From assembly GCF_014191305.1 (NCBI RefSeq), contig NZ_JACHWJ010000003.1:124001-188000 (forward strand): DNA of 64,000 nt, given 5' to 3'. The notes beneath the pieces were generated by a model that searched no databases, was not told the DNA's origin, and saw only the letters and a list, made by a program, of their open reading frames with translations. This stretch comes from Pseudoclavibacter helvolus. Lineage in GTDB: Bacteria; Actinomycetota; Actinomycetes; Actinomycetales; Microbacteriaceae. Both the position numbers and the translations under genes were made by a program. Positions 44,588 through 63,553 of this stretch are shown in pieces; the first letter of the stretch is position 1, and each line of letters begins with the position of its first letter.

Positions 44588-45790
44588 TCAAGCCGCGGTG
44601 AGCCATTCGCGGTAGCTGTTCGCGAGGTCGTCATCGCGGTGTTTTCCGCGCTCGAGTTTCGAGATCGTGGCGGGCCAGACGTTGAAGTGTTCCGCGACGG
44701 TCGTGAGGCTCAGTTTCCGTGCCTGTCGCAGCGGGCGGAGATCATCGATCACCGGAACCTCGACCCTCGTGGTGAGCAGCGTGAACACCTCGCGCGCGAG
44801 CGCTCGCTTCAGGCAACGGATGATCTCCTTGTTGCTGTGGCCCAGCGCGCGTTTACGAGCGACGTAGTCGCGCGTGCGGGGCTCGTACGACATACGAACC
44901 AACGCGATCCGGTGCAACGCGGCGTTCGCTTGCCGGTCCCCGCCTCGATTCAACCGGTGACGCGTCGTCTTCCCCGACGAAGCCGGGATCGGACTGACCC
45001 CGGCCAGCGCCGCGAATGAGGCCTCGCTGCGGAGCCGGTCCGGATTGTCGCCCGCGGTGACCAACAACTGCGCAGCCGTGATCGTGCCGATGCCTTTCGC
45101 CGCGACAAGAGCCGGGTTCGCGGCCGCAGTCAACGCCGCCAGCGCTTGATCGAGGTCGCTGACCTCCTCGCCCAACAGCTGGTGACGCCTCGCGAGCGAT
45201 CGCAGGCCCTGCCCGACCGCGGCGAGTAACGGATCGGTCGAGAGCCGCAACCGGGCCAGCGCCGCGATCAGTGCCTTGTCGCCCAGCGACCGGTAACGCT
45301 CCCGGATCAGGTCCGGAGCCGTGACCAGGAGAGACTTGATCTGGACTATCGCGGCGGTGCGCGCCTTGACCGCGCTGCGACGCGCGACCAGCAGATACCG
45401 GATCGCCTCGACCTGCCCGGCCCCCGCTTTCGGTGTCGCATGCTCGTCCTGCGCGAGCGCGGTCCGCGCCGCCGCGTAGGCATCCAACGGGTCAGACTTC
45501 CCGCGCGTTCGACGGAGCTGTCGATTCGGCCGCAACACCTCAACAACCACGAACCCAGCCGCTCCCAGGTGGCGCGCCAGGCCAGCACCGTAGGAACCGG
45601 TCCCCTCGACCCCGACGCGCACGGCCATCCCGAAGGCGGTCAGGAACGCGGCCAGCGCCGCGTAGCCGGCCGGTGTGGTCGGGAACTGCGCATCACCGAG
45701 TTGTTTCCCGTTGCTATCGATCACCGCGGCATGATGCGTGTCCGCGTGCGTATCGACACCCGCGAAGATTTTCTCGAGTCTTGTTGTCAT
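44588..45790 (-). CDS. IS110-family transposase with C-terminal XRE-like HTH
   Basis: 400 residues. RuvC-like DEDD domain at the start: Asp13 in AGVDTHADTHHAAV, Glu62 in VGVEGTGSYG, and Asp100/Asp103 in KSDPLDAYAAART. Transposase_20 domain at about 225-310 with IGTITAAQLLVTAGDNPDRL, FAALAGVSPIPASSGKTTRH (the reactive Ser, 271 or 272), and NRGGDRQANAALHRIALVRM. From about 345 an extra Cro/C1-type HTH follows: LRPLRQARKLSLTTVAEHFN and ATISKLERGKHRDDDLANSY. Most IS110 recombinases stop before this. The gene is intact. It would recombine DNA guided by an RNA encoded in the upstream non-coding end. Confidence 0.92.
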   Translation of the reverse strand: MTTRLEKIFAGVDTHADTHHAAVIDSNGKQLGDAQFPTTPAGYAALAAFLTAFGMAVRVGVEGTGSYGAGLARHLGAAGFVVVEVLRPNRQLRRTRGKSDPLDAYAAARTALAQDEHATPKAGAGQVEAIRYLLVARRSAVKARTAAIVQIKSLLVTAPDLIRERYRSLGDKALIAALARLRLSTDPLLAAVGQGLRSLARRHQLLGEEVSDLDQALAALTAAANPALVAAKGIGTITAAQLLVTAGDNPDRLRSEASFAALAGVSPIPASSGKTTRHRLNRGGDRQANAALHRIALVRMSYEPRTRDYVARKRALGHSNKEIIRCLKRALAREVFTLLTTRVEVPVIDDLRPLRQARKLSLTTVAEHFNVWPATISKLERGKHRDDDLANSYREWLTAA

Positions 45791-50003: not shown

Positions 50004-51329
50004 CTACGCGTGCGACGCGACGTGGTCCTCGACGGCGTGCTGGGCCTCGGTGTCGTCGCCAGCGAGGACGGCGTCGAGGCTCTCGCGCACGATGCCGAGG
50101 CCGGACTGCAGTTCTTCGCTTGTGAGCGTGAGCGCTGGGAGGAACTTGAGGACTTCCTCGAACGCGCCGGCGGTCTCGATGACCAGGCCGCGCTGGAACG
50201 CCTCAGCGGAGATGCGCGACGGAAGGTCTCGGTCGTTCAAGCTGACGATGCCGTACATGAGGCCTCGGCCGCGCACGGTGAAGGCGAGCTGCGGGTAGTC
50301 GGCGGCGATCGCCTCGAGGCCGGCGCGGAGTTCTGCTGAGCGCTCGGCGACCGTCGTCATGAAGGCGTCGTCGGCCCAGTAGTTCTCGAGGGCGACACGT
50401 GCCGTGACGAACGCGAGGTTGTTGCCTCGGAACGTGCCCGTGTGCGCGCCCGGCTTCCACACATCCACGGCTGGACGCAGCAGCACCAGCGACATGGGGA
50501 GTCCGGAGGCGGAGATCGACTTCGACAGCGTCACGAGGTCGGGGACGATGCCCGACTCCTCGAACGCGAAGAAGGAACCGCTGCGGCCGATTCCTGCCTG
50601 GATCTCGTCGAGGATGAGCAGGATGCCGCGCTCCTCGGTGATCTTGCGGAGACGCTGCAGCCACTCGGGGCTCGCGACGTTGATGCCACCCTCACCCTGA
50701 ATCGCCTCGACGATGACGGCTGCAGGCAGGTCGAGGCCGCTGCCGGTGTCGTCGAGCATCTTCTCGAAGAGGTCGAGCGTGTCGAGCTTGTCGCCCAGGT
50801 AGCCCTCGAAGGGGAGGCGCGTGACATCGCCGAGGGTCGTGCCCGCGGCGTCGCGGTACTTCTTGTTTCCCGTGACGGCCACGGCGCCCAGGCTGAGGCC
50901 GTGGAAGCCGTTCGTGAACGCGACGACGTTGGTGCGTCCCGTGGCCTGGCGGGCGACCTTGAGGGCCGCTTCCACTGCGTTCGCGCCGGTCGGGCCCGTG
51001 AACTGGATCTTGTAGTCGTAGCCGCGCGGCTCGAGCACATACTGCTCGAACGCCTCGATGAAGGCGCGCTTCGCGGAGGTTGCCATGTCGAGGCCGTGCA
51101 GGATGCCGCCGTGCTCGATGTACTCGACGAGCGCCTTCGTGAAGAGCGGGTTGTTGTGCCCGTAGTTGAGCACGCCTGCCCCCGCGAAGAAGTCGAGGTA
51201 CTCGTCGCCGTCGGCAGTCACGAGGGTCGAGCCGAGTGCGCGGTCGAACACCACGGGGAACGAGCGGATGTATCCGCGGACTTCTGACTCGCGACGGTCA
51301 AATACTTCAAGGGGCGAGAAGTCGCTCAT
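50004..51329 (-). CDS. EctB-like diaminobutyrate--2-oxoglutarate transaminase
   Basis: 441 residues. Class III PLP aminotransferase: DEYLDFFAGAGVLNYGHNNP, FTGPTGANAVEAALKVARQ for cofactor phosphate, FHGLSLGAVAVTGNKKYR, LDEIQAGIGRSGSFFAFEES and the PLP-Lys in LVTLSKSISASGLPMSLVLL. The N-terminus DRRESEVRGYIRSFPVVFD is specific to EctB. EctA and EctC are absent nearby, so this is probably not for ectoine; it may make L-2,4-diaminobutyrate for peptidoglycan or take part in diamine breakdown with genes downstream. ATG 51329 chosen because it fits the family start. Confidence 0.85.
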   Translation of the reverse strand: MSDFSPLEVFDRRESEVRGYIRSFPVVFDRALGSTLVTADGDEYLDFFAGAGVLNYGHNNPLFTKALVEYIEHGGILHGLDMATSAKRAFIEAFEQYVLEPRGYDYKIQFTGPTGANAVEAALKVARQATGRTNVVAFTNGFHGLSLGAVAVTGNKKYRDAAGTTLGDVTRLPFEGYLGDKLDTLDLFEKMLDDTGSGLDLPAAVIVEAIQGEGGINVASPEWLQRLRKITEERGILLILDEIQAGIGRSGSFFAFEESGIVPDLVTLSKSISASGLPMSLVLLRPAVDVWKPGAHTGTFRGNNLAFVTARVALENYWADDAFMTTVAERSAELRAGLEAIAADYPQLAFTVRGRGLMYGIVSLNDRDLPSRISAEAFQRGLVIETAGAFEEVLKFLPALTLTSEELQSGLGIVRESLDAVLAGDDTEAQHAVEDHVASHA

Positions 51330-51895: not shown

Positions 51896-52405
51896 ATGGG
51901 CTTGGAAGCTATTGATGTCATCGACCGAAAGATCATCGACCAGCTTCGCGTGGACGGTCGTCGCTCCCTCAGCGAGATCGGTCGATACGTCGGTCTCTCT
52001 GAGGCCAGCGTTCGAACCCGCTACAAGCGGCTTCTCGCTCTCGGAGTCGTTCAGGTCGTCGGCATGCCCAACAGTCTGCGACTCGGTCAGTCAGAGGTGC
52101 ACGTCTTCCTGCAGGTGCGTGGTGCCGAGCTCGAGACCGTGGCTGCGACGTTGTCGGCCTTCGACGAGGTGAAGTTCGTGGCGGCCTGCGTCGGTCGCTA
52201 TGACCTTTCCGTTGATGTTCGGTGCGCGACCGCGGCAGATATGGCCACGTTCCTGTCCCAGACGTTGCGGAGGGTCCCTGGAGTTCAGCGCGTCGAGGTC
52301 GAGACGGTGCTGGAAGTCGTCAAGGACGAGTACGTGTGGGCGGGATTCCGCGACCCGGTCCGGCGCGGGACGCGCCCGCACCCGAGTACCGGGCAAGTCG
52401 GGTAG
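51896..52405 (+). CDS. Lrp/AsnC-family regulator (A)
   Basis: 169 residues. HTH: IDRKIIDQLRVDGRRSLSEI, GRYVGLSEASVRTRYKRLLA; then the RAM/AsnC_trans_reg domain with VHVFLQVRGAELETVAATLS and AACVGRYDLSVDVRCATAAD. Lrp proteins sense amino acids or amines. It is convergent with a second Lrp gene 15 bases away, an unusual tail-to-tail pair. Possible targets are the divergent EctB-like gene and the Pot operon. Confidence 0.92.
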   Translation: MGLEAIDVIDRKIIDQLRVDGRRSLSEIGRYVGLSEASVRTRYKRLLALGVVQVVGMPNSLRLGQSEVHVFLQVRGAELETVAATLSAFDEVKFVAACVGRYDLSVDVRCATAADMATFLSQTLRRVPGVQRVEVETVLEVVKDEYVWAGFRDPVRRGTRPHPSTGQVG

Positions 52406-52420
52406 GGCGCGGCCCTGACG

Positions 52421-52924
52421 TTAGGTGTGCGCGCGTTCGCCCGAACCGCCGAGCGACCAGTCACCTGAGCGATTGCGGAGCCCACGCCAGGAGTAGTCCT
52501 TGTAGAGACGCGAGATGACATTGGGTTCGATGTCCGCGATTCCGCGAATCTGGCGGAGCTCATCGAGCAACGTCATGAGCTGGTCCAGATCTCGCGCGGT
52601 CGCCTCGAGGTAGATGTCGTTGCGGCCCGCTATGAGGGCCACGTGGCCGACCATCGCAATGTCCGCGATGGTGCGCGCGACATCTGCTGGCGTGAAATCG
52701 CGGACGGTGATCCGAAAGCGGACTGGCTGATGTCCGAGCGTCAACGGATTGCAGAGCGCCACGATCCGCAGCGTGCCGTCAGACGTGAGTCTGCTGACGC
52801 GCGTGCGGATCGTGGCCTCGGAGACCCCCAGCTCTACGGCGATGTCGGTGAACGCTCGCCGACCGTCGGTCGCCAGCAGGTCGATGAGCCTGCGATCGAG
52901 TTCATCAACAGCCACGTGGAGCAC
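52421..52924 (-). CDS. Lrp/AsnC-family regulator (B), end of the Pot/BKACE operon
   Basis: 167 residues. HTH DELDRRLIDLLATDGRRAFT, DIAVELGVSEATIRTRVSRL; ligand domain with VRFRITVRDFTPADVARTIA and ALIAGRNDIYLEATARDLDQ. Starts three bases after the BKACE stop, so it is the last gene of the run from potB. It is likely the local regulator of that pathway, responding to the imported amine or a product. About as distant from Lrp A as from most family members by eye. Confidence 0.92.
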   Translation of the reverse strand: MLHVAVDELDRRLIDLLATDGRRAFTDIAVELGVSEATIRTRVSRLTSDGTLRIVALCNPLTLGHQPVRFRITVRDFTPADVARTIADIAMVGHVALIAGRNDIYLEATARDLDQLMTLLDELRQIRGIADIEPNVISRLYKDYSWRGLRNRSGDWSLGGSGERAHT

Positions 52925-52927
52925 CAG

Positions 52928-53704
52928 TCATGGTTGATGACGATACTCCCTAGCGCGCATCTCAGCCTCGAGCGCTCGAGCTCCCAGCACCATGGCAGTG
53001 TTGCTCGGCGACAGGCTGCCATCCCGTGCGACGAGCATGTCCTCGAACCCGACGCGGGTCTCCGCTCCGTCTTCGAAGGCCGCGGCGACGACCGCCCATG
53101 CGGCCCCGTCGAAGCCGTGATAGCACAGGGGCGTCGTCACGCCCGCATCCCGGATGAGCGCGGCCATGCGGCGCGCGTGCGCCACAGCTGCCGCGGGGTC
53201 CTCGTCTTCCGGTTCGATGAGGATGCGCACGTTGTGGTGCAGGGATGGAGCGGCGAGCAGAGCTGGGACATCCTCAACCGACCAGACAGCGCTCTCGAGC
53301 ACGATTCCGCGCTCGATGAGGTAGTCGGCGGCCTCCGCGGCCCCCTCCTCGCAGAATGCGACCGAGGCGAAGTCGGGGAGGCCGTCGTCGTGCCACGAAC
53401 GCAGCGTCCGCATCCGGTCTTCGTGCCCGTCGCAGGTCCAGAGGCCCGTTGTCGTCCCGATCGGGATTCCCGGGTTCACCGCGTGCGAGGCTTGGACGAG
53501 CTCTCGCACGGCGTCTGCGTCGATCGTCTGTCCGCCATCGCTGGTCCTGGCGTGCGCGTGGATGACGTCGGCTCCGGCAGCGATGGCCGCAGCCGCGTCG
53601 ATCGCCACTTCCTGCGCCGTGACCGGCGTCGCTGAGTGCTCTGACTTCGTGCGGCCGCCGTTGACCGCGACCTTGATCAGCGTGCGCTGTGTGTTAGTCA
53701 TCAC
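52928..53704 (-). CDS. BKACE family (beta-keto acid cleavage) enzyme
   Basis: 258 residues. Known members use acetyl-CoA to split a 3-keto acid into acetoacetate and a CoA ester, with Zn. The Zn/substrate motif is HAHART (His49, His51, Arg53) in AGADVIHAHARTSDGG, and the family Glu is Glu221 in TRVGFEDMLVARDG. GTTTGLWTCDGHEDRM replaces the usual STGG loop, so the substrate pocket is atypical. The protein is shorter than Kce (about 275-300). It overlaps the RraA-like gene by four bases and precedes the Lrp gene by three. Confidence 0.87.
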   Translation of the reverse strand: MMTNTQRTLIKVAVNGGRTKSEHSATPVTAQEVAIDAAAAIAAGADVIHAHARTSDGGQTIDADAVRELVQASHAVNPGIPIGTTTGLWTCDGHEDRMRTLRSWHDDGLPDFASVAFCEEGAAEAADYLIERGIVLESAVWSVEDVPALLAAPSLHHNVRILIEPEDEDPAAAVAHARRMAALIRDAGVTTPLCYHGFDGAAWAVVAAAFEDGAETRVGFEDMLVARDGSLSPSNTAMVLGARALEAEMRAREYRHQP

Positions 53705-54384
53705 GCCCTCTCCCGCCGCGCGGTCAGGCGTTCGACGGCCTCGCTCGCGCCCGTGAGTTCGCCGAGTCTGGCGCCGTTTGCGATCTGCTGCGCGAGATCG
53801 ATCTCGTCGTCGTCGTCGGCGAGGATCTCGTCGACAAGAGGTTCGAGGAGCTCAGCGGGGGCCACGAATACGCCGTTGCGGTCGGCGAGCACCACGTCTC
53901 CGGGGCGCACGAGCACTCCACCTGCGACGACAGGGACATTGATGCCTCCCTCGTCGAGGTGCAGCAGCTTGGTCGTGAGAGCGCTCGTGCCACGCGCATA
54001 CGCGGCGATGCCTTGCGCCTCGATCTCGTCGAGGTCGGTGACTGCTCCGTCGACGAGCACGCCGAGGCCGCCGCGTGCCGCGACAGCTCTCGCGATCATC
54101 TCGCCTACTGGCGCGTGCGTCCGGTCGCCGCCAGTGTCGATGACGAGGAAATCGCCAGCCTCGAGCTGACCGACGACGTGGTGCAGCAGCGTTGAGTCCT
54201 GGGCAGTCAGGCGCACGGTCACAGCGCGACCGACGAGGCGGCCCGCGCCGCAGAGGCGGTGGATCTCGGGCGATACGAATCCGACCTCGAGGTAGTGCCC
54301 GAAAGTTGGCACGGATGCGCGGGCGAGCTTGCTGACGAGCTCGGGGTTCAGCGGTGCTGGGGAATCGCCGATGACGATGGCCAT
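53701..54384 (-). CDS. RraA-like fold protein (HMG-aldolase/decarboxylase family)
   Basis: 227 residues. RraA/HMG aldolase fold: GAGRLVGRAVTVRLTAQDST, AGDFLVIDTGGDRTHAPVGE, VVAGGVLVRPGDVVLADRNG, VFVAPAELLEPLVDEIL. The usual active-site motif is VDGAVRD, with Arg for substrate and Asp for metal; here it reads VDGAVTD (Thr116-Asp117), so the Arg is lost. It therefore is probably not a standard pyruvate aldolase and may act on a basic or uncharged substrate. Overlaps neighbours by one base upstream and four downstream. Confidence 0.82.
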   Translation of the reverse strand: MAIVIGDSPAPLNPELVSKLARASVPTFGHYLEVGFVSPEIHRLCGAGRLVGRAVTVRLTAQDSTLLHHVVGQLEAGDFLVIDTGGDRTHAPVGEMIARAVAARGGLGVLVDGAVTDLDEIEAQGIAAYARGTSALTTKLLHLDEGGINVPVVAGGVLVRPGDVVLADRNGVFVAPAELLEPLVDEILADDDDEIDLAQQIANGARLGELTGASEAVERLTARRERA

Positions 54385-55205
54385 TAGGCCTCCTGTTCGA
54401 TGGTGACGGTGGAAATGATGCGCCGGTTCGCAAGGGAGGGCACGGTGTGTCGCACGGCTGCGGTCTCGTCGAGTGAGATCACCTGGTGGATGACGCCGTC
54501 GCCTCGAGGGCCGAGCGATGCGCGCGCGGTGCCGAGGGGATCGATGATCGAGCTCTGGCCGATGCAGTCCTCGGACGACGTGCTCGCCGCGAGCACCCAG
54601 CAGGTGTTCTCGATGGCGCGGGCGCGCAGGAGCGTCGACCAGTGCTCTTCCTTGCGGAGCCCCGCAACCCAGGCTGCAGATACGGCGAGCGCATCAGCGC
54701 CTCGAGTGACGAGGTCCCGGCTCAGCTCGGGGAAACGGATGTCGTAGCAGTTGACGAGGCCGACGGCCACGCCTTCGATCATCACCACGGGCGGCATTTC
54801 GGTACCGCTGGTGACGTAGTCGGATTCCCGGTAGGAGAAGGCGTCGTAGAGGTGCAGCTTGCGGTAGCTGTCGATGATCGCTCCGGTCGGGTCGATCACG
54901 ACGAGTGTGTTGAACGGACGCGGAGAGCTGTTGTCTTCGTACCCGCCGGCGATGAGCCAGACATCGTGTTCGGTGGCGAGTGCTGAGAGTCGGGCCACGA
55001 ACTTCGGCCACGCGTCCGCGACCGCGGTCTGGAGGTCCGGCACGTCGGAGGCGAGGATCATGGCCTCTTCGGGAAACACCACGAGGCGGGCGCCGTCGGC
55101 GTTGGCTTCGGCGGTGAGCCGAGCGATCGTCTGCAGGTTGACTTCGGCGTCGACGGTCGGCGCCATCTGGGCGACGGCGACGGTGAGGGAAGGATTGCTG
55201 GTCAT
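54384..55205 (-). CDS. carbon-nitrogen hydrolase (nitrilase superfamily amidase)
   Basis: 273 residues from ATG 55205. Catalytic triad: Glu in VVFPEEAMILAS, Lys in SYRKLHLYDAFSYRES and Cys in VGLVNCYDIRFPELSRDL. A second Glu follows (WSTLLRARAIENTCWVLAAS). Typical of omega-amidase/N-carbamoylamine amidase-like enzymes that split amides to acid plus ammonia. It overlaps potA by four bases (ATGA), so hydrolysis is tied to import. A polyamine-derived or amidated substrate is plausible; exact reaction unknown. Confidence 0.9.
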   Translation of the reverse strand: MTSNPSLTVAVAQMAPTVDAEVNLQTIARLTAEANADGARLVVFPEEAMILASDVPDLQTAVADAWPKFVARLSALATEHDVWLIAGGYEDNSSPRPFNTLVVIDPTGAIIDSYRKLHLYDAFSYRESDYVTSGTEMPPVVMIEGVAVGLVNCYDIRFPELSRDLVTRGADALAVSAAWVAGLRKEEHWSTLLRARAIENTCWVLAASTSSEDCIGQSSIIDPLGTARASLGPRGDGVIHQVISLDETAAVRHTVPSLANRRIISTVTIEQEA

Positions 55206-56371
55206 GCGGCGACCTCTTCGCTGAGGGGTGAGACTGCGGTCGTTGAGTCGTCGGCGAGCACTTGCGCGTCGGCGGCGCTCCAGGTGATCCAGGCTGAGGC
55301 TCCGTTCGGCAGCGCTATCACGTCGGCCATCACCTCGTTGCTCGCGACGCGAACGCTCAGCAGCTGCCCACCGTCGAGGGTGACCCGGTACATCCATTCG
55401 TCGCCGAGGAAGACGCGCTCCTTCACGGTCGCTCGCAGCGCGAGGCGGTCGTCGGGAGGCAGTACTGAGATCTGCACGCGCTCGGGTCGGATGGCGACAG
55501 CCGCGGCCGAGCCGGCGCTCGTCGGAATGCTTGTTGTCGTGGGCACCGGGCCAACCTCGGGAATCTCGACGCCGGACTCGAGCGCGACGCCCTCGACGAT
55601 GTTGCACTCGCCAATGAATGTGGCGACGAACCTGGAGTTGGGCTTGTCGTAGATCTCCGTGGGGCTTGCGAGCTGCAGGATTCGCCCTTCCGACATGACC
55701 GCGATGCGGTCTGACATGGTGAGCGCCTCTTCCTGGTCGTGTGTGACGTAGATGAAGGTGATGCCGACTTCACGTTGCATGCGTTTCAGCTCGAACTGCA
55801 TCTCCTTGCGGAGTTTCTGGTCGAGCGCGCCGAGCGGCTCGTCGAGGAGGACAACGGCTGGGCGGCCGATGACGGCTCTCGCAAGCGCGACGCGCTGACG
55901 CTGCCCTCCGCTGAGCTGGCTCGGCTTGCGCTGAGCGAAATCTCCCAGACGCACGAGCTCGATTGCATCCCGAACCCGACCGTCGATCTCGTCTTTCGCC
56001 GTCTTGCGGACCCGCAGCTCGAACGCCACGTTCTCGTAGACGGTGAGGTGAGGGAAGAGGGCGTAGCTCTGGAAGAGCATGTTCAGATCACGGTCGCGTG
56101 TGCTGACGCCATCGACGTTTCGGCCGTCCAGCTCTATGGAGCCCGCTGTCGGCGCCTCGAAGCCCGTGATCATGCGCATGAGGGTGGTCTTGCCGCATCC
56201 AGAGGGGCCGAGGATGCTGAAGAACTCGTTCTCGTAGATGTCGACGTCGGTGGGTGCGACTGCTTGGTGGTCTCCGAACGTTTTCGTGAGACCGCGGAGT
56301 CGGACAGCGACCTTCGGAGTGGTGTGTGCTGACGCGGAGGCGCCTTGGTCGCTCTGGATTGTGAGTGCCAT
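55202..56371 (-). CDS. polyamine-type ABC transporter ATP-binding protein
   Basis: 389 residues. ABC ATPase: Walker A LGPSGCGKTTLMRM, Q-loop LNMLFQSYALFPHLTVYENV, signature KPSQLSGGQRQRVALARA, Walker B VVLLDEPLGALD and switch YVTHDQEEALTMS. A TOBE domain follows from about 290. PotA-like by sequence layout, and placed downstream of potD in a BCDA gene order. ATG 56371; the open frame upstream is unrelated. Ends by overlap with the amidase. Confidence 0.93.
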   Translation of the reverse strand: MALTIQSDQGASASAHTTPKVAVRLRGLTKTFGDHQAVAPTDVDIYENEFFSILGPSGCGKTTLMRMITGFEAPTAGSIELDGRNVDGVSTRDRDLNMLFQSYALFPHLTVYENVAFELRVRKTAKDEIDGRVRDAIELVRLGDFAQRKPSQLSGGQRQRVALARAVIGRPAVVLLDEPLGALDQKLRKEMQFELKRMQREVGITFIYVTHDQEEALTMSDRIAVMSEGRILQLASPTEIYDKPNSRFVATFIGECNIVEGVALESGVEIPEVGPVPTTTSIPTSAGSAAAVAIRPERVQISVLPPDDRLALRATVKERVFLGDEWMYRVTLDGGQLLSVRVASNEVMADVIALPNGASAWITWSAADAQVLADDSTTAVSPLSEEVAA

Positions 56372-56391
56372 GTTCGAGACTCGTTTCTGGC

Positions 56392-57453
56392 TCAGGACGC
56401 GCGAACGCGCGTCCAGCCGGCCTGGTAGAAGCTGAGGGCAGCACCTGGATCGGTGATGAACTCGGCGTTGGTGAGCTGCTCTTCCGGGGCGTAGATGGCG
56501 GGGTTGGAGACGAGGTCCTGGTTGGCGATGACCTCCAGGGCGGCCGCGTTGGTGCTCGCGAGGCTGGCGTCGTCGGTCACGAGGGCTGCGACTTCCGGGC
56601 GGAGCGTGTAATTGATCCACTGGTAGGCGGCATCCGTCGCATCGGAGTCGTTGACGATCGAGAAGCTGTCGGTCCAGAGCGTTCCGCCCTCCGTTGGCAG
56701 GGTGAAGCGCACGTCGGGGTTGGCATCGACGGCTGTTGCCGCGACCGTGCCGCTGTAGGCCTGCGCGATGCAGGCGTCGCCGGCGCCGACCAGGTCGGCG
56801 TAGTTCGTGCTGTTGTAGCCGGCGAGGTTCGGCTTCTGCTCCAGCAGCGAGTCGGTGGCTGTGCTGATCTCGGACTCGGACGTCGAAGTGGCCGAGTATC
56901 CGTTCACCTGCAAGCCGGCGATGTAGGCCGAGAGCATGTTGTCGAGCATGTAGACCTTGCCGGCGAACTTCGGGTCCCAGAAGTCTTCCCAGGAGGTGAT
57001 CTCGCGCCCCGTGCAGGCTTCGTTGTAGAGGATGCCCGTCGTGCCCCACGCCCACGGGATGCTGTGCTCATTGCCGGGGTCGAACGACGGGTCGCGGAAC
57101 TTCTCCGCGATGTTGTCCAAGCCCTCGATCTTGCTCTCGTCGAGCTTCTGAATGAGTTCTCGCTCTGCGAGCAGACCGACCGCGTATTGGCTCGGCTCGA
57201 CGATGTCGTAGCCGCTGCCGCCTGCCTGGAGCTTGGCGATCATGGTCTCGTTGCTGTCGAACGTGTCGACGGTCACGCTGATACCGGTCTCGGCTTCGAA
57301 CCCGGCGATGACGGAGTCTGGGATCTCCCCGGCCCAGGCGTAGATGCTGAGGGAATTGGGCGCGCCTTCGGTGCTACCGGATGCTGAGCATCCGGTGAGG
57401 ACCAGGGCGGCGGCGACAGCTGCGACGGACGCAGCTCGAGTGGTGTGCTTCAT
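56392..57453 (-). CDS. PotD-like solute-binding lipoprotein
   Basis: 353 residues. Signal VAAVAAALVLTGCSASG with lipobox LTGC. Binds and presents polyamine-like solutes: SIYAWAGEIPDSVIAGFEAE, TVDTFDSNETMIAKLQAGGS, YDIVEPSQYAVGLLAERELI, then SIPWAWGTTGILYNEACTG and TSWEDFWDPKFAGKVYMLDN. These blocks match PotD/PotF-type proteins. The classic polyamine-site acidic and Trp residues are only partly recognisable, so the ligand may be another amine. 20 bases before potA. Confidence 0.9.
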   Translation of the reverse strand: MKHTTRAASVAAVAAALVLTGCSASGSTEGAPNSLSIYAWAGEIPDSVIAGFEAETGISVTVDTFDSNETMIAKLQAGGSGYDIVEPSQYAVGLLAERELIQKLDESKIEGLDNIAEKFRDPSFDPGNEHSIPWAWGTTGILYNEACTGREITSWEDFWDPKFAGKVYMLDNMLSAYIAGLQVNGYSATSTSESEISTATDSLLEQKPNLAGYNSTNYADLVGAGDACIAQAYSGTVAATAVDANPDVRFTLPTEGGTLWTDSFSIVNDSDATDAAYQWINYTLRPEVAALVTDDASLASTNAAALEVIANQDLVSNPAIYAPEEQLTNAEFITDPGAALSFYQAGWTRVRAS

Positions 57454-57493
57454 GCGAGTTCCTAACGGTGAGCAGAAGGGTGAAATGTGCGGA

Positions 57494-58282
57494 CTACTTG
57501 GCGGGTGTGCCGGCGAGGATGCGTCGGAGCTGCCCGACGCCGATGATGAGGATCAGGACGACGGTTGCGACGACCATGAGCGTTCCGAGCGCATTCAGCT
57601 CGGGGCTGAGGCCGGTGCGGACCGAGCTGTAGATACGCAACGGAAGCGTCGTGGTTCCGACGCCCGCGGTGAATGTGGAGATGACGATGTTGCTGAACGA
57701 GGTCGTGAAGGCGAGGAGGAAGGAAGCGAGCACAGATGGCAGCACCAGGGGGAGCGTGACGAGTCGGAAGCTCGTCCAGCCGCTTGCCCCGAGGTCGTTC
57801 GCAGCCTCCGGAAGGCTCGGGTCGAGCGCACTGAGCGCACCGATCATGATGAGCGTTGCGAGCGGCAGCGTCACCACGAGGTGGCCGAGCACAAGCGTCA
57901 GGTAGCCCATCGGCACGCCGATCCCTTGGAAGATCGAGAGCAGAGAGACGCCGAGCACGATCTCAGGGACGATGAGCGGCACGAGGATCGCGCCGAGGAA
58001 GAAGCCGCGGCCACTGATGCGGTAGCGATTCACTGCGAGGGCCGTCGCGAAGCCGATTGCGGTCGCGAGCACCGCAGAGACCACTCCGACGATCGCGCTT
58101 GTCTGCAGAGTGTTGAGCAGGAGCGTGTCCTGAAAGAGCTCTGCGTACCAGCGGAGGCTGAAGCCGTCGAAGCGGTAGCTGACTTCTGACGCGTTGAAGG
58201 AGTAGACGATGAGGCCGACGATCGGCACGTAGAGGAAGACGAACGCGAGGCGCGCGATCCAGTTCAGCAGGCGGTCCATCAT
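57494..58282 (-). CDS. polyamine-type ABC permease (PotC-like)
   Basis: 262 residues, six membrane helices. Start ATG 58282 overlaps the potB stop as ATGA. Begins LAFVFLYVPIVGLIVYSFNA and FDGFSLRWYAELFQDTLLLN, the PotC pattern. The EAA loop SLPEAANDLGASGWTSFRLV gives the ATPase contact. Later helices TLMVVATVVLILIIGVGQLR. Functions with PotB, D and A. Confidence 0.93.
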   Translation of the reverse strand: MMDRLLNWIARLAFVFLYVPIVGLIVYSFNASEVSYRFDGFSLRWYAELFQDTLLLNTLQTSAIVGVVSAVLATAIGFATALAVNRYRISGRGFFLGAILVPLIVPEIVLGVSLLSIFQGIGVPMGYLTLVLGHLVVTLPLATLIMIGALSALDPSLPEAANDLGASGWTSFRLVTLPLVLPSVLASFLLAFTTSFSNIVISTFTAGVGTTTLPLRIYSSVRTGLSPELNALGTLMVVATVVLILIIGVGQLRRILAGTPAK

Positions 58283-59190
58283 TTGGCCTTCTTCCTGGAG
58301 ATGGCGCGCAGCACGAGGCCCGCTGCGACGACCGACAGCAGCATGAGCACGAAGACGACCACGGAGAGCGCCGAACCGAGCGGCTCGTTGCGGAACTCGG
58401 TGAAGAGGGTCACGATGAGGTTGCCGACGAGCGGATCCTTGCCGCCGCCCAGCAACACGGGGATGACGAAGACGCCGAGCGTCGGCACGAAGGTCAGCAT
58501 GACGGCGCCGGCGATGCCCTGAGCAGAGAGCGGTACGAAGATGCGCGCGTGGGTCTGCCACCAGCCCGCCCCGAGATCCGCCGCCGCCTCTCGGAGCGAT
58601 GGGTCGATCGTGCGCATGGACGCGTAGATGGGGAACACGGCGACCGGCAGGAACGCGTAGATGAGCGAGAGCGTCACCGCCAACTGCGATGGGACGAGCG
58701 ACTCGGCCGGCAGGCCGGTCAGGCTCACGAGCCACACGATGGGGCCGGCGCTGCCGAGGATGTTGATCCAGGCGAAGCTGCGGACCATGAAGTCGGTGAA
58801 GTACGGGATGATCACGAGCACGAGCAGAATCGGCTGGACGCGCGCGGGCCGTGTCGTGATGTACACGGCCACGGCGTAGCCGAGCACGACGCACAGCACC
58901 GCGTTGAGCAGCGCCATGCCGAGGCTGTATCCGATCGTCTTCGCGTAGACGGGGTCGAGCAGAGTGAGGTAGTTGTCGAGGGTGAAGCCGCCGAGGTCAC
59001 CGCCGAGCGGGTCGCTGATCGCGAAACTGTCCCGGATGATGAGGAGCATCGGCAGGATCACGAGCGCGAGGATGACGAGGGCGGCTGGCAGGATCAGCAG
59101 GTAGCCGGCGGCGTTGCCTGAGCTGCGCTGATCTGGCGTCGGCTTGGGTTGTGCTGCCTTGCCCCGTTGAGCGGGTCGCAGTTGAGTCAT
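58279..59190 (-). CDS. polyamine-type ABC permease (PotB-like)
   Basis: 303 residues. About 30 basic-polar N-terminal residues, then LLILPAALVILALVILPMLL and six helices in all. EAA loop SLREAAADLGAGWWQTHARI. GNLIVTLFTEFRNEPLGSAL is typical of PotB. First gene of a probable operon of eight (potB, C, D, A, amidase, RraA-like, BKACE, Lrp). The upstream 208 bases to the next gene hold the promoter region; the dyad TGCGC-gaca-GCGCA (about 59219-59232) is a possible operator, but no -35/-10 pair is clear. Confidence 0.93.
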   Translation of the reverse strand: MTQLRPAQRGKAAQPKPTPDQRSSGNAAGYLLILPAALVILALVILPMLLIIRDSFAISDPLGGDLGGFTLDNYLTLLDPVYAKTIGYSLGMALLNAVLCVVLGYAVAVYITTRPARVQPILLVLVIIPYFTDFMVRSFAWINILGSAGPIVWLVSLTGLPAESLVPSQLAVTLSLIYAFLPVAVFPIYASMRTIDPSLREAAADLGAGWWQTHARIFVPLSAQGIAGAVMLTFVPTLGVFVIPVLLGGGKDPLVGNLIVTLFTEFRNEPLGSALSVVVFVLMLLSVVAAGLVLRAISRKKAK

Positions 59191-59398
59191 GTGGGTCCTT
59201 TGCTGGGTTGCAGCAATCCTGCGCGACAGCGCAGACCCACGGGGGAGCGGAGTGCCTCGAAAAGCGACGTGTTCGCGTTACCTCAGATCGCATTTCGTGG
59301 AATGAAGAAGAAACAAGGTCGGGTGTATCGCAGCCGTCCTCAATTCGCGGGCGATCACGTCCCGCTACGAGATTCGAAGCGCCCTCGGTGGAGCGGCC

Positions 59399-60370
59399 TC
59401 AGCGCACCGTGAACAGGTACCCGTCGATGAGGTCGACAAGCTGCTCGGGAGTGAGCTGTTCGTGCAGCGGCGTCAGCCAGTCGGGCCGAATGTCGTCGAG
59501 CAGCCCTTCCCGCACCATGATGTCGGCCTGTTGCGCGTATCCGCGTGCCACGTCTTCTGAAGAGCCGAACATGACGATGTCGGCGAAGCCGAGGTTCTCA
59601 GCGAAGGCATCGAGGTAGGTGACGCGGGTTGCGCCGATGCCGCGCTCGGCGAGTGGCAGCTCGTGCAGATGCCGGGTCTCGGTGCGGTACCGCTCCCACA
59701 GCTTCGTCCACCGGCGCTGCAGCGGCGGGCGGATGAGCGTGAGCGCAGCGAGGGAGGCGAGCCCGACGAGGTAGAGCGGAACGGCCCACGACGGCAGCCA
59801 CGGGGCGAGCAGCACGAGCGCCAGCGGCACGAAGAGAAGTCCCGCCGAGGCTCGGCTGTACGGGCTCGCGAGCAGAAGCGTCACCCATGAGTCCCGGTCG
59901 GTGTGATCGACGCGTGCGCGATCGAGCTCGGCGACGACAGTGGTCTTGAGCGCGGAGCGGCGTGCCGGATCGTCCGCGCCGGTGCGATCGACTCTGGCCC
60001 GGTTCCCGCGGCTCCGCCGCCCGCCCGGGAAGTAGGCGTCGATGACGGCACTGGACCACGCTGGCAGCGACGGGTCGTCGCCCAGCCATTCGACCTCCCA
60101 TCCGCTCGAGCGTGGTGCGCGGTACCCGGCGGTCGTGATGCGGGCGGCCGCGCCCGAGTCTTCGACTTCGTGGATGCGCAGCACCCCGCGGTGCGCGAGC
60201 CAGGTCACCTCCCCGGCGAACGCCGTCTCCCATCCGCGTAGGTCCTCGTCGAGGCGCGTGAGTCGGTGCTGCGCGGCGAGCGGGGTGAGCAGGAGTCGGG
60301 AGCGCGACCAGATCGGCAGCTTCGTCAGGAACAGCGCGAGCGCCGAGGTCACGACGAGCGCGAGTGCCAC
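59399..60370 (-). CDS. hypothetical membrane protein, N-terminus uncertain
   Basis: 323 residues from GTG 60370, the first start codon in the frame. Helix 1 (LALVVTSALALFLTKLPIW) begins at once and homology-like sequence seems to continue upstream in the same frame (ENLWHTLALVAL), so the true start may be missing or changed. A cytoplasmic domain follows (residues 25-155) with ETAFAGEVTWLAHRGVLRIH and VEWLGDDPSLPAWSSAVID. A helix pair LLFVPLALVLLAPWL and VPLYLVGLASLAALTLI comes at about 175-215. The tail holds RYRTETRHLHELPLAERGIG and MFGSSEDVARGYAQQADIMV. Resembles the C-terminal membrane and cytoplasmic parts of DUF2207-type proteins, but I am not certain. Confidence 0.55.
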   Translation of the reverse strand: MALALVVTSALALFLTKLPIWSRSRLLLTPLAAQHRLTRLDEDLRGWETAFAGEVTWLAHRGVLRIHEVEDSGAAARITTAGYRAPRSSGWEVEWLGDDPSLPAWSSAVIDAYFPGGRRSRGNRARVDRTGADDPARRSALKTTVVAELDRARVDHTDRDSWVTLLLASPYSRASAGLLFVPLALVLLAPWLPSWAVPLYLVGLASLAALTLIRPPLQRRWTKLWERYRTETRHLHELPLAERGIGATRVTYLDAFAENLGFADIVMFGSSEDVARGYAQQADIMVREGLLDDIRPDWLTPLHEQLTPEQLVDLIDGYLFTVR

Positions 60371-61318: not shown

Positions 61319-61771
61319 CTATCCGACGCCCCACCCGTAGGCGAGCTTGTGGGCTTCGAGCACGAAGAACGTTTCCGTGCGTCGCACGCCCTCGGTGGTC
61401 TGGAGCCGTTCGAGGAGCAGCTCCTTGTAGTGTTCCATGTCGCGGCAGATGACCTCGACCATGACGTCGAAGCCGCCGCTCGTGAGCACCACGTAGCTGG
61501 TCTCGGGAAGTGCGGAGAGTGCTTCGCAGACGCTGCGGGCAAAGCCGGGTTCGCAGTGGATGCCCACCATGGCGAGGTGATCGAAGCCGATGGAGAGCGG
61601 GTTCGCGATGCCGACGATCTGCAGAATTCCCGAGTCCTCGAGACGCTGCACGCGGTACCTGACCGACGACGCCGGGTGGCCGGTCTCATCGGCGATGTCC
61701 TTGAACGACCGTCGCCCGTCCTTCTGGAGGATCGCGATGAGCTGCCGATCGATGTCGTCGAGTTCGTTCAC
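61319..61771 (-). CDS. Lrp/AsnC-family regulator (C)
   Basis: 150 residues from GTG 61771, which follows GAGGAGCAGCC; an ATG at 61804 is a weaker alternative. HTH IDRQLIAILQKDGRRSFKDI, ADETGHPASSVRYRVQRLED; ligand domain MVGIHCEPGFARSVCEALSA, VVLTSGGFDVMVEVICRDME. It lies downstream of the aldehyde dehydrogenase on the same strand, separated by a terminator, and may control it together with the divergent permease. Confidence 0.92.
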   Translation of the reverse strand: MNELDDIDRQLIAILQKDGRRSFKDIADETGHPASSVRYRVQRLEDSGILQIVGIANPLSIGFDHLAMVGIHCEPGFARSVCEALSALPETSYVVLTSGGFDVMVEVICRDMEHYKELLLERLQTTEGVRRTETFFVLEAHKLAYGWGVG

Positions 61772-61840
61772 GGCTGCTCCTCGGTTCCTGTGCTGCGGTG
61801 TCATCACGTTCTGACCTGCTTTCATGCTCGCACGACGGGG

Positions 61841-61895: not shown

Positions 61896-63356
61896 CTAGG
61901 AGCCGACGTGGATGGCGCCGGTGCGGAGGTCGGTCATGTCGTGCAGCGTGTACATGCCTCCGATGCGTCCCCATCCGGTGCCCTTGCCGCCGGCACCGCC
62001 GAACGGCATGTTGATGTCCCACCAGCCGTTCGAGTCGTTGACGATGACCTGACCGGTCTCGAGCTCTTCGATGAAGCGGTACGCCTTGCTGAGGCTCTCC
62101 GTGAACACGGCCGACTGGAGGCCGAGGCGGTCGGCGTTCGCGATCCGCAGGGCGTCGTCGTCGTCTTTCGCGGTGAGGATCGGCAGCACGGGACCAAACG
62201 ACTCCTCCTGCGAGAGCAGGCTGGCTTCGCTGACACCGTCGACGATCGTGAAGTCGTAGTACAGGTCGGTGGGGTGCCCAGCTGCGCGACCGCCGCCGAG
62301 GAGCACGTCGAACCCGAGGCGCCGGGCCTCGTCGAGGTGCCGATCCATCTTGGCGGCGACGCCCTCGTTGTTGAGCGGGCCGAGGTTGACGGATGCATCG
62401 AACGGGTCGCCGAGCACAACGTGCGAGCTCGCGTAGGCGAGCGCCGACTCGACGAAGGCGTCGTGCACGCGGTGGTGCACGATGAGGCGCTCGGTCGCGC
62501 AGCACACCTGGCCGCCGCAGTAGAAGGCGGAGTCGACAGCGGCTTTCGCGGCGCGTTCGATGTTCGCGTCCTCGAGCACCACGATCGGCCCGTTGCCGGA
62601 GCACTCCATGAGCGAGCGCTTGAGGCCGGCCGTCTGGACGATCTTCGCGCCGGTCGCGGAGGACCCGATGAAGCCGATCGCGTCGATGCCGGGGTGCGAG
62701 ACGAGCTGGGCGCCGAATGGGCCGTCGCCGGGGAGCACGCTGACGAGTCCGTCGGGAACGCCCGCCTCGAGCAGGCAGTCCATGGCTGCGAGGACGGCGA
62801 GGGGCGTGTTGCTCGGCGGCTTGACGATGCACGCGTTGCCGGTCGCGAGGCCGGGGGCCACGAACTCCGTGAACATGAGGAGCGGGAAGTTCCAGGGAGT
62901 GATGATGCCCCACGTGCCGACGGGCGCTCGGTAGGTGAACATGCGCTTGTCGACGTCGCTCGAGGGGAGCGTCTCGCCGTAGAGGCGCAGTGCGTCCTCG
63001 GCGTGCAGGTGGAAGAGCTGTGCGGCTTCCTTGATATCTGCGATCGACTCCGCGACGGGCTTGCCCTGCTCGAGCGTCTGGAGCCGCGCGAGCTCGTCGA
63101 CGCGGTGTTCGATGGCGTCGCCGATGCGGTGGCAGACCTTGGCGCGCTCGAAGACGCCGAGCTTGCGCCACGCCTTCTGGGCGGTCCGAGCCTTCTCGAC
63201 GGCCCTGTCGAGATCCGCCTGGCCCGGCACTGCGATGGACGCGATGACCTGGCCGGTCACGGGGCTCACGACGTCAGTCTGCTCCCCGGTGGAGCCATTG
63301 ACGAAGTCTCCAGCGAGGAAGAGCTGGGTACGGGTTGCTGCAGGCAGAGTTGTCAC
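61896..63356 (-). CDS. aldehyde dehydrogenase family protein
   Basis: 486 residues from GTG 63356, fixed by the strong ribosome site AAGGAGGTGCGGA. NAD(P)-dependent oxidation of an aldehyde to acid. PWNFPLLMFTEFVAPGLATG, KPPSNTPLAVLAAMDCLLEA, GFIGSSATGAKIVQ, catalytic Glu in LMECSGNGPIVVLEDAN and Cys in YCGGQVCCATERLIVH, then EESFGPVLPI and NMPFGGAGGKGTGWGR. Placement beside an APC permease and an Lrp regulator suggests oxidation of an amine-derived aldehyde (inference). Shares a 197-base control region with the permease; its AT-rich stretch 63421-63475 may bind an Lrp protein. Confidence 0.93.
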   Translation of the reverse strand: MTTLPAATRTQLFLAGDFVNGSTGEQTDVVSPVTGQVIASIAVPGQADLDRAVEKARTAQKAWRKLGVFERAKVCHRIGDAIEHRVDELARLQTLEQGKPVAESIADIKEAAQLFHLHAEDALRLYGETLPSSDVDKRMFTYRAPVGTWGIITPWNFPLLMFTEFVAPGLATGNACIVKPPSNTPLAVLAAMDCLLEAGVPDGLVSVLPGDGPFGAQLVSHPGIDAIGFIGSSATGAKIVQTAGLKRSLMECSGNGPIVVLEDANIERAAKAAVDSAFYCGGQVCCATERLIVHHRVHDAFVESALAYASSHVVLGDPFDASVNLGPLNNEGVAAKMDRHLDEARRLGFDVLLGGGRAAGHPTDLYYDFTIVDGVSEASLLSQEESFGPVLPILTAKDDDDALRIANADRLGLQSAVFTESLSKAYRFIEELETGQVIVNDSNGWWDINMPFGGAGGKGTGWGRIGGMYTLHDMTDLRTGAIHVGS

Positions 63357-63553
63357 TCCGCACCTCCTTGTGTGGTGAACGATCTCCTTCACCATACGGC
63401 GTTGCTTTCTCACGAACAAGCAGTTATGTTTCGCATCAGTTACGTTTTGAGCAACTTGGGTGCCAATATCTTGCGCTGACGAAGAAGTCGGAGTCAGAGT
63501 TGGCGCACCGCGACGGCGAGAGCATCGCCGCCCCCGAATCGATGGAGTCACGC

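Follow-up and report, generated by a model that had tools for sequence, protein, structure and literature searches.

The window analysed here, a stretch of 64,000 nucleotides from Pseudoclavibacter helvolus (GCF_014191305.1, NZ_JACHWJ010000003.1, positions 124,001-188,000 of the forward strand), contains a cassette of nine genes that encode a PotABCD-like importer, a nitrilase-superfamily amidase, an RraA-fold protein, a member of the DUF849 or β-keto acid cleavage enzyme (BKACE) family and two Lrp-type regulators. Open reading frames were re-called on both strands, and families were assigned using Pfam and NCBIfam profiles with their curated cut-offs (Table 1). Eight of the genes, arranged in the order potB-potC-potD-potA-amidase-RraA-DUF849/BKACE-Lrp, span positions 52421-59190 of the minus strand. 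Their junctions, from potB to lrp, measure -4, +40, +20, -4, -1, -4 and +3 bases, the last of which counts the GTG start of the DUF849 gene, with an ATG located one codon further in. The nearest minus-strand frame upstream of potB ends at position 59399. These gene calls confirm the tight spacing described in a previous reading made from the letters alone (the sequence-only reading), and Pfam agrees with the families named there (BPD_transp_1 twice, SBP_bac_8, ABC_tran plus TOBE_2, CN_hydrolase, RraA-like, BKACE and AsnC/Lrp). That reading had the operon closed by an Lrp gene, which is incomplete, as the cassette includes a second Lrp gene on the plus strand.

Table 1. Features of the cassette (positions are those of the window)
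Feature	Position	Strand	Family assignment and remarks
potB-like permease	58279..59190	-	BPD_transp_1; NCBIfam PotB 169.6 bits (cut-off 348)
potC-like permease	57494..58282	-	BPD_transp_1; PotC 234.9 bits (cut-off 326); ATG at 58282, 4-base overlap with potB
potD-like solute-binding protein	56392..57453	-	SBP_bac_8; lipobox-like LTGC (Cys22)
potA-like ATPase	55202..56371	-	ABC_tran and TOBE_2; start ATG at 56371 within a longer open frame
Nitrilase-superfamily amidase, nearest to Nit1/Nit2-type models	54384..55205	-	CN_hydrolase, 181 bits
RraA-fold protein, aldolase Arg replaced by Thr116	53701..54384	-	RraA-like, 109.6 bits
DUF849/BKACE-fold protein, 258 amino acids, altered active site	52928..53704	-	PF05853, 96.8 bits (cut-off 24.8)
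Lrp/AsnC regulator 1	52421..52924	-	HTH_AsnC-type and AsnC_trans_reg; kept with the cassette
Lrp/AsnC regulator 2, convergent with regulator 1	51896..52405	+	AsnC/Lrp family; cassette member
47-base conserved element upstream of potB, operator candidate	59253..59299	-	Matrix scan, leave-one-out

Conservation of the gene order in other actinobacteria, a check set beforehand, was found in two sets of genomes. With the DUF849 protein as a query, matches were obtained in 21 of the 150 genomes of a family sample, which includes the window's own genome and was drawn from a larger group. Twenty-kilobase stretches were opened for the 12 best matches in genomes other than that of the window. Five of them (L022-L026; L numbers denote loci) contain the whole nine-gene set, corresponding to 5 of the 149 other genomes, and the remaining seven lack the cassette, their DUF849 relatives being ~34-39% identical. 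A scan of named genomes returned at least 35 loci; among the 35 matches listed, potBCDA-amidase-RraA-DUF849 occurs in the same order in 31. The loci without the full order are L051, which is cut by a contig end, L060 and L065, which have a different importer, and L068, where a truncated DUF849 frame adjoins a transposase-like frame. Among the 31, L050 has potD split in two pieces. The hosts include Herbiconiux, Leifsonia, Agromyces, Leucobacter, Microbacterium, Agrococcus, Kineosporia, Streptomyces, Mycolicibacterium and Microtetraspora, among others, and approximately 36 distinct full cassettes were seen, counting that of the window (L025 and L066 are apparently one record). In a phylum sample of 396 genomes, 131 of which have some DUF849 match, the cassette was not seen in the 20 regions opened out of the 22 best outside the window's genome, several of which lie near contig ends; the DUF849 relatives in these regions are again 34-39% identical. 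Plasmid relatives, seen in 50 records, all show less than 60% identity. The recurrence in the family sample and the named loci places the gene order beyond chance, and its frequency in the family sample, together with the sampled phylum regions that lack it, shows that the cassette is rare, patchy and coherent in its distribution. Distant DUF849 relatives (~34-39% identity) were considered as further carriers and rejected, since none of the 7 + 20 loci inspected has the cassette. As a separate observation, an importer distantly related to the Pot type is encoded in L033, 3.6 kb away and on the other strand.

In several loci, cassette genes share a reading frame. The RraA and DUF849 genes form one open frame in L022 (476 amino acids), as do the amidase and DUF849 genes in L060 and L065, both from Leucobacter (512 and 513 amino acids). 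These arrangements, whose single-protein products are putative, argue for linked steps. An Opp-type importer takes the place of the Pot importer in L060. Together with a C45-family acylase/hydrolase (209 bits, cut-off 85), an RpiR-type regulator and the RraA gene, it is encoded on the strand opposite to the amidase-DUF849 frame, which diverges from it; a further hydrolase-like protein of this group weakly resembles poly(hydroxybutyrate) depolymerases, with scores under the cut-offs. Clustering identified orthologues of these variant genes in L065. The C45 protein again belongs to an amide-acting family. Because the importer is replaced in both loci, the predicted core of the system is the amidase together with the RraA and DUF849 proteins, with an exchangeable importer, and the variant perhaps serves a different imported compound. 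A full cassette (L050) is present as well in Leucobacter sp. G161, the strain of L060.

Both lrp genes are present in 29 of the 31 full-cassette loci (all except L040 and L043) as well as in L022-L026, and the two are found together upstream of potB in eight loci, seven from Streptomyces and one from Microtetraspora. A conserved 47-base element upstream of potB was first picked by eye from upstream sequences and then converted into a matrix based on 13 sites. When applied to the window, to L126 and to 27 loci, this matrix scored at least 26.9 in 14 of the 27 loci and weakly (13.1) in L025 and L066; no site above 12 was found in the other 11 (L026, L037, L046-L048, L058, L060-L062, L065, L067) or in ten shuffled windows. 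Scores of 44-59 were reached in three loci outside the training set (L040, L043, L053), which are, however, closely related to loci within it. In leave-one-out scans, the window's site ranked first in the window with a score of 24.4, followed by a runner-up at 5.7, and 11 of the other 12 training sites scored at least 31.7, with L041 reaching only 6.7. The 3.84-Mb genome of the window contains one such site when up to 3 mismatches to the consensus pattern are allowed. It would be this candidate element to which the Lrp proteins bind.

The importer resembles the PotABCD spermidine/putrescine system in its four-subunit layout and in its ATPase, which exceeds the cut-off of the PotA subfamily model TIGR01187 (387.6 bits, cut-off 355.6) and falls below that of the PotA equivalog (392.4 bits vs 482). 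Unlike their namesakes, however, the PotB, PotC and PotD proteins all score under their NCBIfam equivalog cut-offs (199.9 bits vs 582 for PotD). The closest solved relatives of the binding protein are PotD/PotF-type structures. Among the positions that we take to be the ligand residues of PotD (Trp34, Tyr37, Ser83, Tyr85, Asp168, Glu171, Trp255 and Asp257), five are kept in all 37 orthologues, as Trp40, Ser88, Tyr90, Trp260 and Asp262. In contrast, Tyr37 is replaced by Glu43, Asp168 by Asn172 and Glu171 by Ser or Ala175 (37/37 each), so that only Asp262 is retained of the acidic trio of PotD. With two acidic ligand positions changed, a polyamine is a doubtful substrate, and the pocket points, tentatively, to a ligand with one amine and a neutral far end. 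Thus, the polyamine-type importer of the sequence-only reading stands as a transporter type, with its polyamine ligand in doubt.

The amidase finds its top NCBIfam and Protein Data Bank matches among Nit1/Nit2-type amidases (deaminated glutathione amidase and omega-amidase). Its Glu46, Lys116 and Cys153, which presumably form the Glu-Lys-Cys catalytic set of the nitrilase superfamily, are present in 40 of 40 sequences, and Glu47 in 39. N-carbamoylputrescine amidase was rejected as an assignment, its model yielding 103 bits, far under the cut-off of 410. A second nitrilase-type amidase, 39-43% identical to that of the window, lies near the Lrp pair in L050, L051 and L041.

A predicted structure of the RraA-like protein, modelled from 31 sequences with a predicted local distance difference test (pLDDT) score of 95.8, has its top Foldseek E-value against HMG/CHA aldolase (3noj; query-normalised TM-score (TMq) 0.88, 1.8 Å, 27% identity), a relative within PF03737. 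The shorter RraA regulators give similar target-normalised TM-scores, and in the sequence comparison RraAS2 (5x15), an inhibitor of RNase ES in Streptomyces, reaches 3.1e-19, compared with 9.6e-20 for HMG/CHA aldolase. We take the aldolase motif to be D/G-X20-R-D, and the R-D of 3noj is visible in the alignment. Its Asp corresponds to Asp117 of the cassette protein and is kept in 41 of 41 sequences, whereas the Arg is replaced by Thr116 in 40, that is, in every cassette copy seen; the single Arg at this position belongs to an RraA protein of another kind (33-34% identical) near the remnant in L068. Asp168 and other site residues are likewise invariant or nearly so; Glu95 (36 of the 41 sequences) and Glu120 (33) vary. 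Given the Thr in place of the motif Arg, a canonical role as a pyruvate aldolase or oxaloacetate decarboxylase appears unlikely.

Similar considerations apply to the DUF849 protein. Its AlphaFold2 model (33 orthologues, mean pLDDT 95.9) is a TIM-barrel whose top Foldseek matches are DUF849 structures, including Kce (2y7e, TMq 0.79), with cis-epoxysuccinate hydrolase and ObcA ranking lower, and the profile-profile probability against an alignment of five other DUF849 genes is 99.6. Nonetheless, it shares ~21% identity with Kce, and its best score against the NCBIfam BKACE equivalogs, 64.7 bits, is under the cut-off (382). Across 40 sequences, one of them a probable duplicate, His49, His51, Arg217, Glu221, Asp222, Arg18, Ala139 and Trp141 are all invariant. 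The zinc ligands are thereby retained (His49, His51 and Glu221; presumably His46, His48 and Glu230 in Kce), as are the Arg and Asp of the RxGxED motif. The remainder of the active site departs from that of Kce: in the profile alignment, Ala139 occupies the Glu143 position and Trp141 the Tyr145 position, Arg18 aligns either with Glu14 or with a directly neighbouring position, depending on the alignment, and Glu164-Pro165 closes strand 6 in place of the glycine-rich stretch that the other proteins, as read by eye, have there. The Tyr145 criterion is loose, as the five other aligned genes have Phe in four cases and Tyr in one. A preprint on BsfD, whose metal ligands are also His-His-Glu, describes the catalytic Tyr as present in all BKACE and a DUF849 enzyme with Phe in its place as having different chemistry (PMC12871164), and a clustering paper reports DUF849 groups that lack BKACE activity (PMC4922564). 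In view of these published cases and the altered Tyr145, Glu143 and strand 6 positions, we do not file the cassette protein as a working BKACE, although it may work like one.

The features computed directly (the gene set, its order and spread, the shared frames, the conserved residues, the predicted folds and the upstream element) are best explained, in our judgement and with moderate confidence, by a self-contained actinobacterial catabolic cassette that imports and degrades a compound bearing both an amine and an amide under local Lrp control. The binding protein would take up a small molecule that carries a single positively charged amine and is neutral, probably an amide, at its far end; the PotABC-like transporter would import it, and the nitrilase-type amidase would hydrolyse the amide. 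The RraA-fold and DUF849 enzymes would then process the freed acid, with no need for an oxidoreductase of the cassette's own, and housekeeping enzymes would complete its breakdown. Both Lrp proteins would detect the substrate or one of the products and exert control at the single element upstream of potB. The most likely class of substrate is an N-acyl- or omega-amide of a short amine of the putrescine/4-aminobutyrate type. We are least sure of the last two enzymes: the chemistry of the RraA-fold protein probably differs from that of canonical RraA aldolases, and that of the DUF849 protein may differ from that of canonical BKACE. In a tentative extension of this model, the route is new and includes two new reactions, one by an RraA-fold enzyme that lacks the pyruvate-binding Arg and one by the DUF849 enzyme, whose altered pocket would not cleave with acetyl-CoA but would instead hydrolyse, decarboxylate or otherwise cleave a C-C bond; the two enzymes would act in turn on the acid that the amidase sets free. 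This pathway as a whole is probably undescribed, as the sequence-only reading also proposed; we found no description of this gene set in the open-licence papers searched. The cassette, intact across several actinobacterial groups, is clearly delimited as a target, as it comes with an importer, two regulators and a conserved upstream element. It would assign a function to those RraA and DUF849 subgroups to which its proteins belong, and for these members the usual database names (ribonuclease regulator and 3-keto-5-aminohexanoate cleavage protein) may be wrong. It merits listing among tractable undescribed pathways.

Genes adjacent to the cassette provide a hint toward the field of putrescine and 4-aminobutyrate (GABA), and nothing more. 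In six loci (L022, L034, L035, L036, L040 and L043), potB is preceded by a putrescine oxidase gene at a distance of no more than 1.5 kb, with two short predicted frames in between in L034; the L035 oxidase scores 577.5 bits to putrescine oxidase 2yg6. In all of these except L035, the oxidase gene is followed by an aldehyde dehydrogenase gene closest to succinic semialdehyde dehydrogenase models, with scores under the cut-offs, and L035, from Kineosporia, has a GABA transaminase above cut-off near the cassette. The window's genome encodes a putrescine oxidase elsewhere (57% identity). Such oxidases are common (53 of the 150 family-sample genomes), and we rejected the oxidase as a tenth cassette member, given its presence near potB in six loci only and the lack of significant co-occurrence.

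Several observations weigh against the proposed import and breakdown of an amine- and amide-bearing compound. Co-occurrence of putrescine oxidase and cassette in the family sample is not significant (4/6 vs 49/144, one-sided p 0.12). Five of the six oxidase-adjacent loci seem to represent a single closely related group (four Herbiconiux, plus L022, whose oxidase is ~81% identical), the oxidase of G011, a genome of the same genus as that containing L022 (G093), is located on another contig, and in L035 the oxidase and potB are separated by the conserved element, so that cotranscription is not required. Scans of 20 flanking proteins, in two batches of ten, revealed no common metabolic function. 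The amidase differs from the Nit1/Nit2-type enzymes in scoring under the cut-off of all nine NCBIfam equivalog models listed, including that of deaminated glutathione amidase (228 bits, cut-off 355). The reading of the binding pocket is uncertain, as Asp171, which adjoins Asn172, is kept in 36 of 37 orthologues and Glu43 adds an acid to the pocket. Finally, the DUF849 search gave no match in two further genomes of the window's genus.

Among the alternatives, the specific chemistry envisaged in the sequence-only reading, canonical keto-acid chemistry by the RraA protein followed by CoA-dependent retro-Claisen cleavage by the DUF849 protein, is unlikely. It would agree with the HMG/CHA aldolase as the top structural match of the former and with the Kce fold, zinc ligands and Arg/Asp pair of the latter, but it is at odds with the loss of the aldolase Arg in all cassette RraA proteins seen, with the Trp, Ala and Glu-Pro substitutions in the DUF849 protein and with the published family members that lack BKACE activity or perform different chemistry. 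The chemistry proposed there remains plausible in outline and doubtful in detail, with amine/amide import and breakdown as the best reading.

A route resembling that of β-lysine is more improbable. Here, an imported N-acylated β-amino acid, such as N6-acetyl-β-lysine, would be converted to a 3-keto acid, which the DUF849 protein and acetyl-CoA would turn into acetoacetate and 4-acylaminobutyryl-CoA. The amidase would then release 4-aminobutyrate, to be degraded by GABA transaminase and succinic semialdehyde dehydrogenase. A pseudomonad precedent reportedly exists; we did not find it, or the route, among the open-licence papers listed. The metal site and Arg/Asp pair of the DUF849 fold would suit this scheme, the missing Glu143-type residue would be in keeping with an acylated, uncharged side chain, and the GABA transaminase in Kineosporia and the aldehyde dehydrogenases in five other loci would supply the final steps. 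However, the conserved set contains neither an aminotransferase nor an acetyltransferase, the position of the catalytic Tyr is occupied by Trp, and RraA is left without a role.

We regard as similarly improbable that the cassette serves plain uptake and catabolism of putrescine or spermidine, with the three enzymes as accessories. The transporter type, the match to the PotA subfamily, the polyamine ligands of the nearest solved binding proteins and the six neighbouring putrescine oxidase genes speak for such a function, whereas the unmatched PotB, PotC and PotD equivalogs, the uniformly altered Tyr37, Asp168 and Glu171 positions and the non-significant co-occurrence of the oxidase speak against it, and neither an amidase nor the RraA/DUF849 pair is needed for a polyamine. 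Very unlikely, lastly, is a purely regulatory RraA-like protein acting on an RNase or on partner enzymes, with catalysis left to the amidase and DUF849 protein: the lost Arg, the near-equal match to RraAS2 and the similar target-normalised TM-scores would fit, but the site residues are (nearly) invariant, the frame is shared with DUF849 in L022 and the best whole-length fold match is the aldolase. Rhizoferrin, tropane alkaloids, 4-methyleneglutamine and acyl-homoserine lactones were dropped as substrates, as there was no evidence for them.

Ectoine metabolism was also rejected. An EctB-type diaminobutyrate aminotransferase gene lies beside the cassette in the window (50007-51329, minus strand; TIGR02407 above cut-off), but none was found near the cassette in other loci, where the only match, in L035, is the GABA transaminase. 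The ectoine synthase family has no match in the window's genome, a weak negative given that 14 control genomes are equally silent. Elsewhere, genes for ethanolamine ammonia-lyase flank the cassette in L044, and a LytR-type envelope protein is among the flanking proteins in L034 and L037. In the window itself, a third Lrp gene (61319-61825) and an aldehyde dehydrogenase gene (61896-63551; under the cut-off of all 25 NCBIfam models shown) lie side by side on the minus strand, and an IS110/IS116-type transposase frame (44588-45790, minus strand) lies ~6 kb from the cassette.

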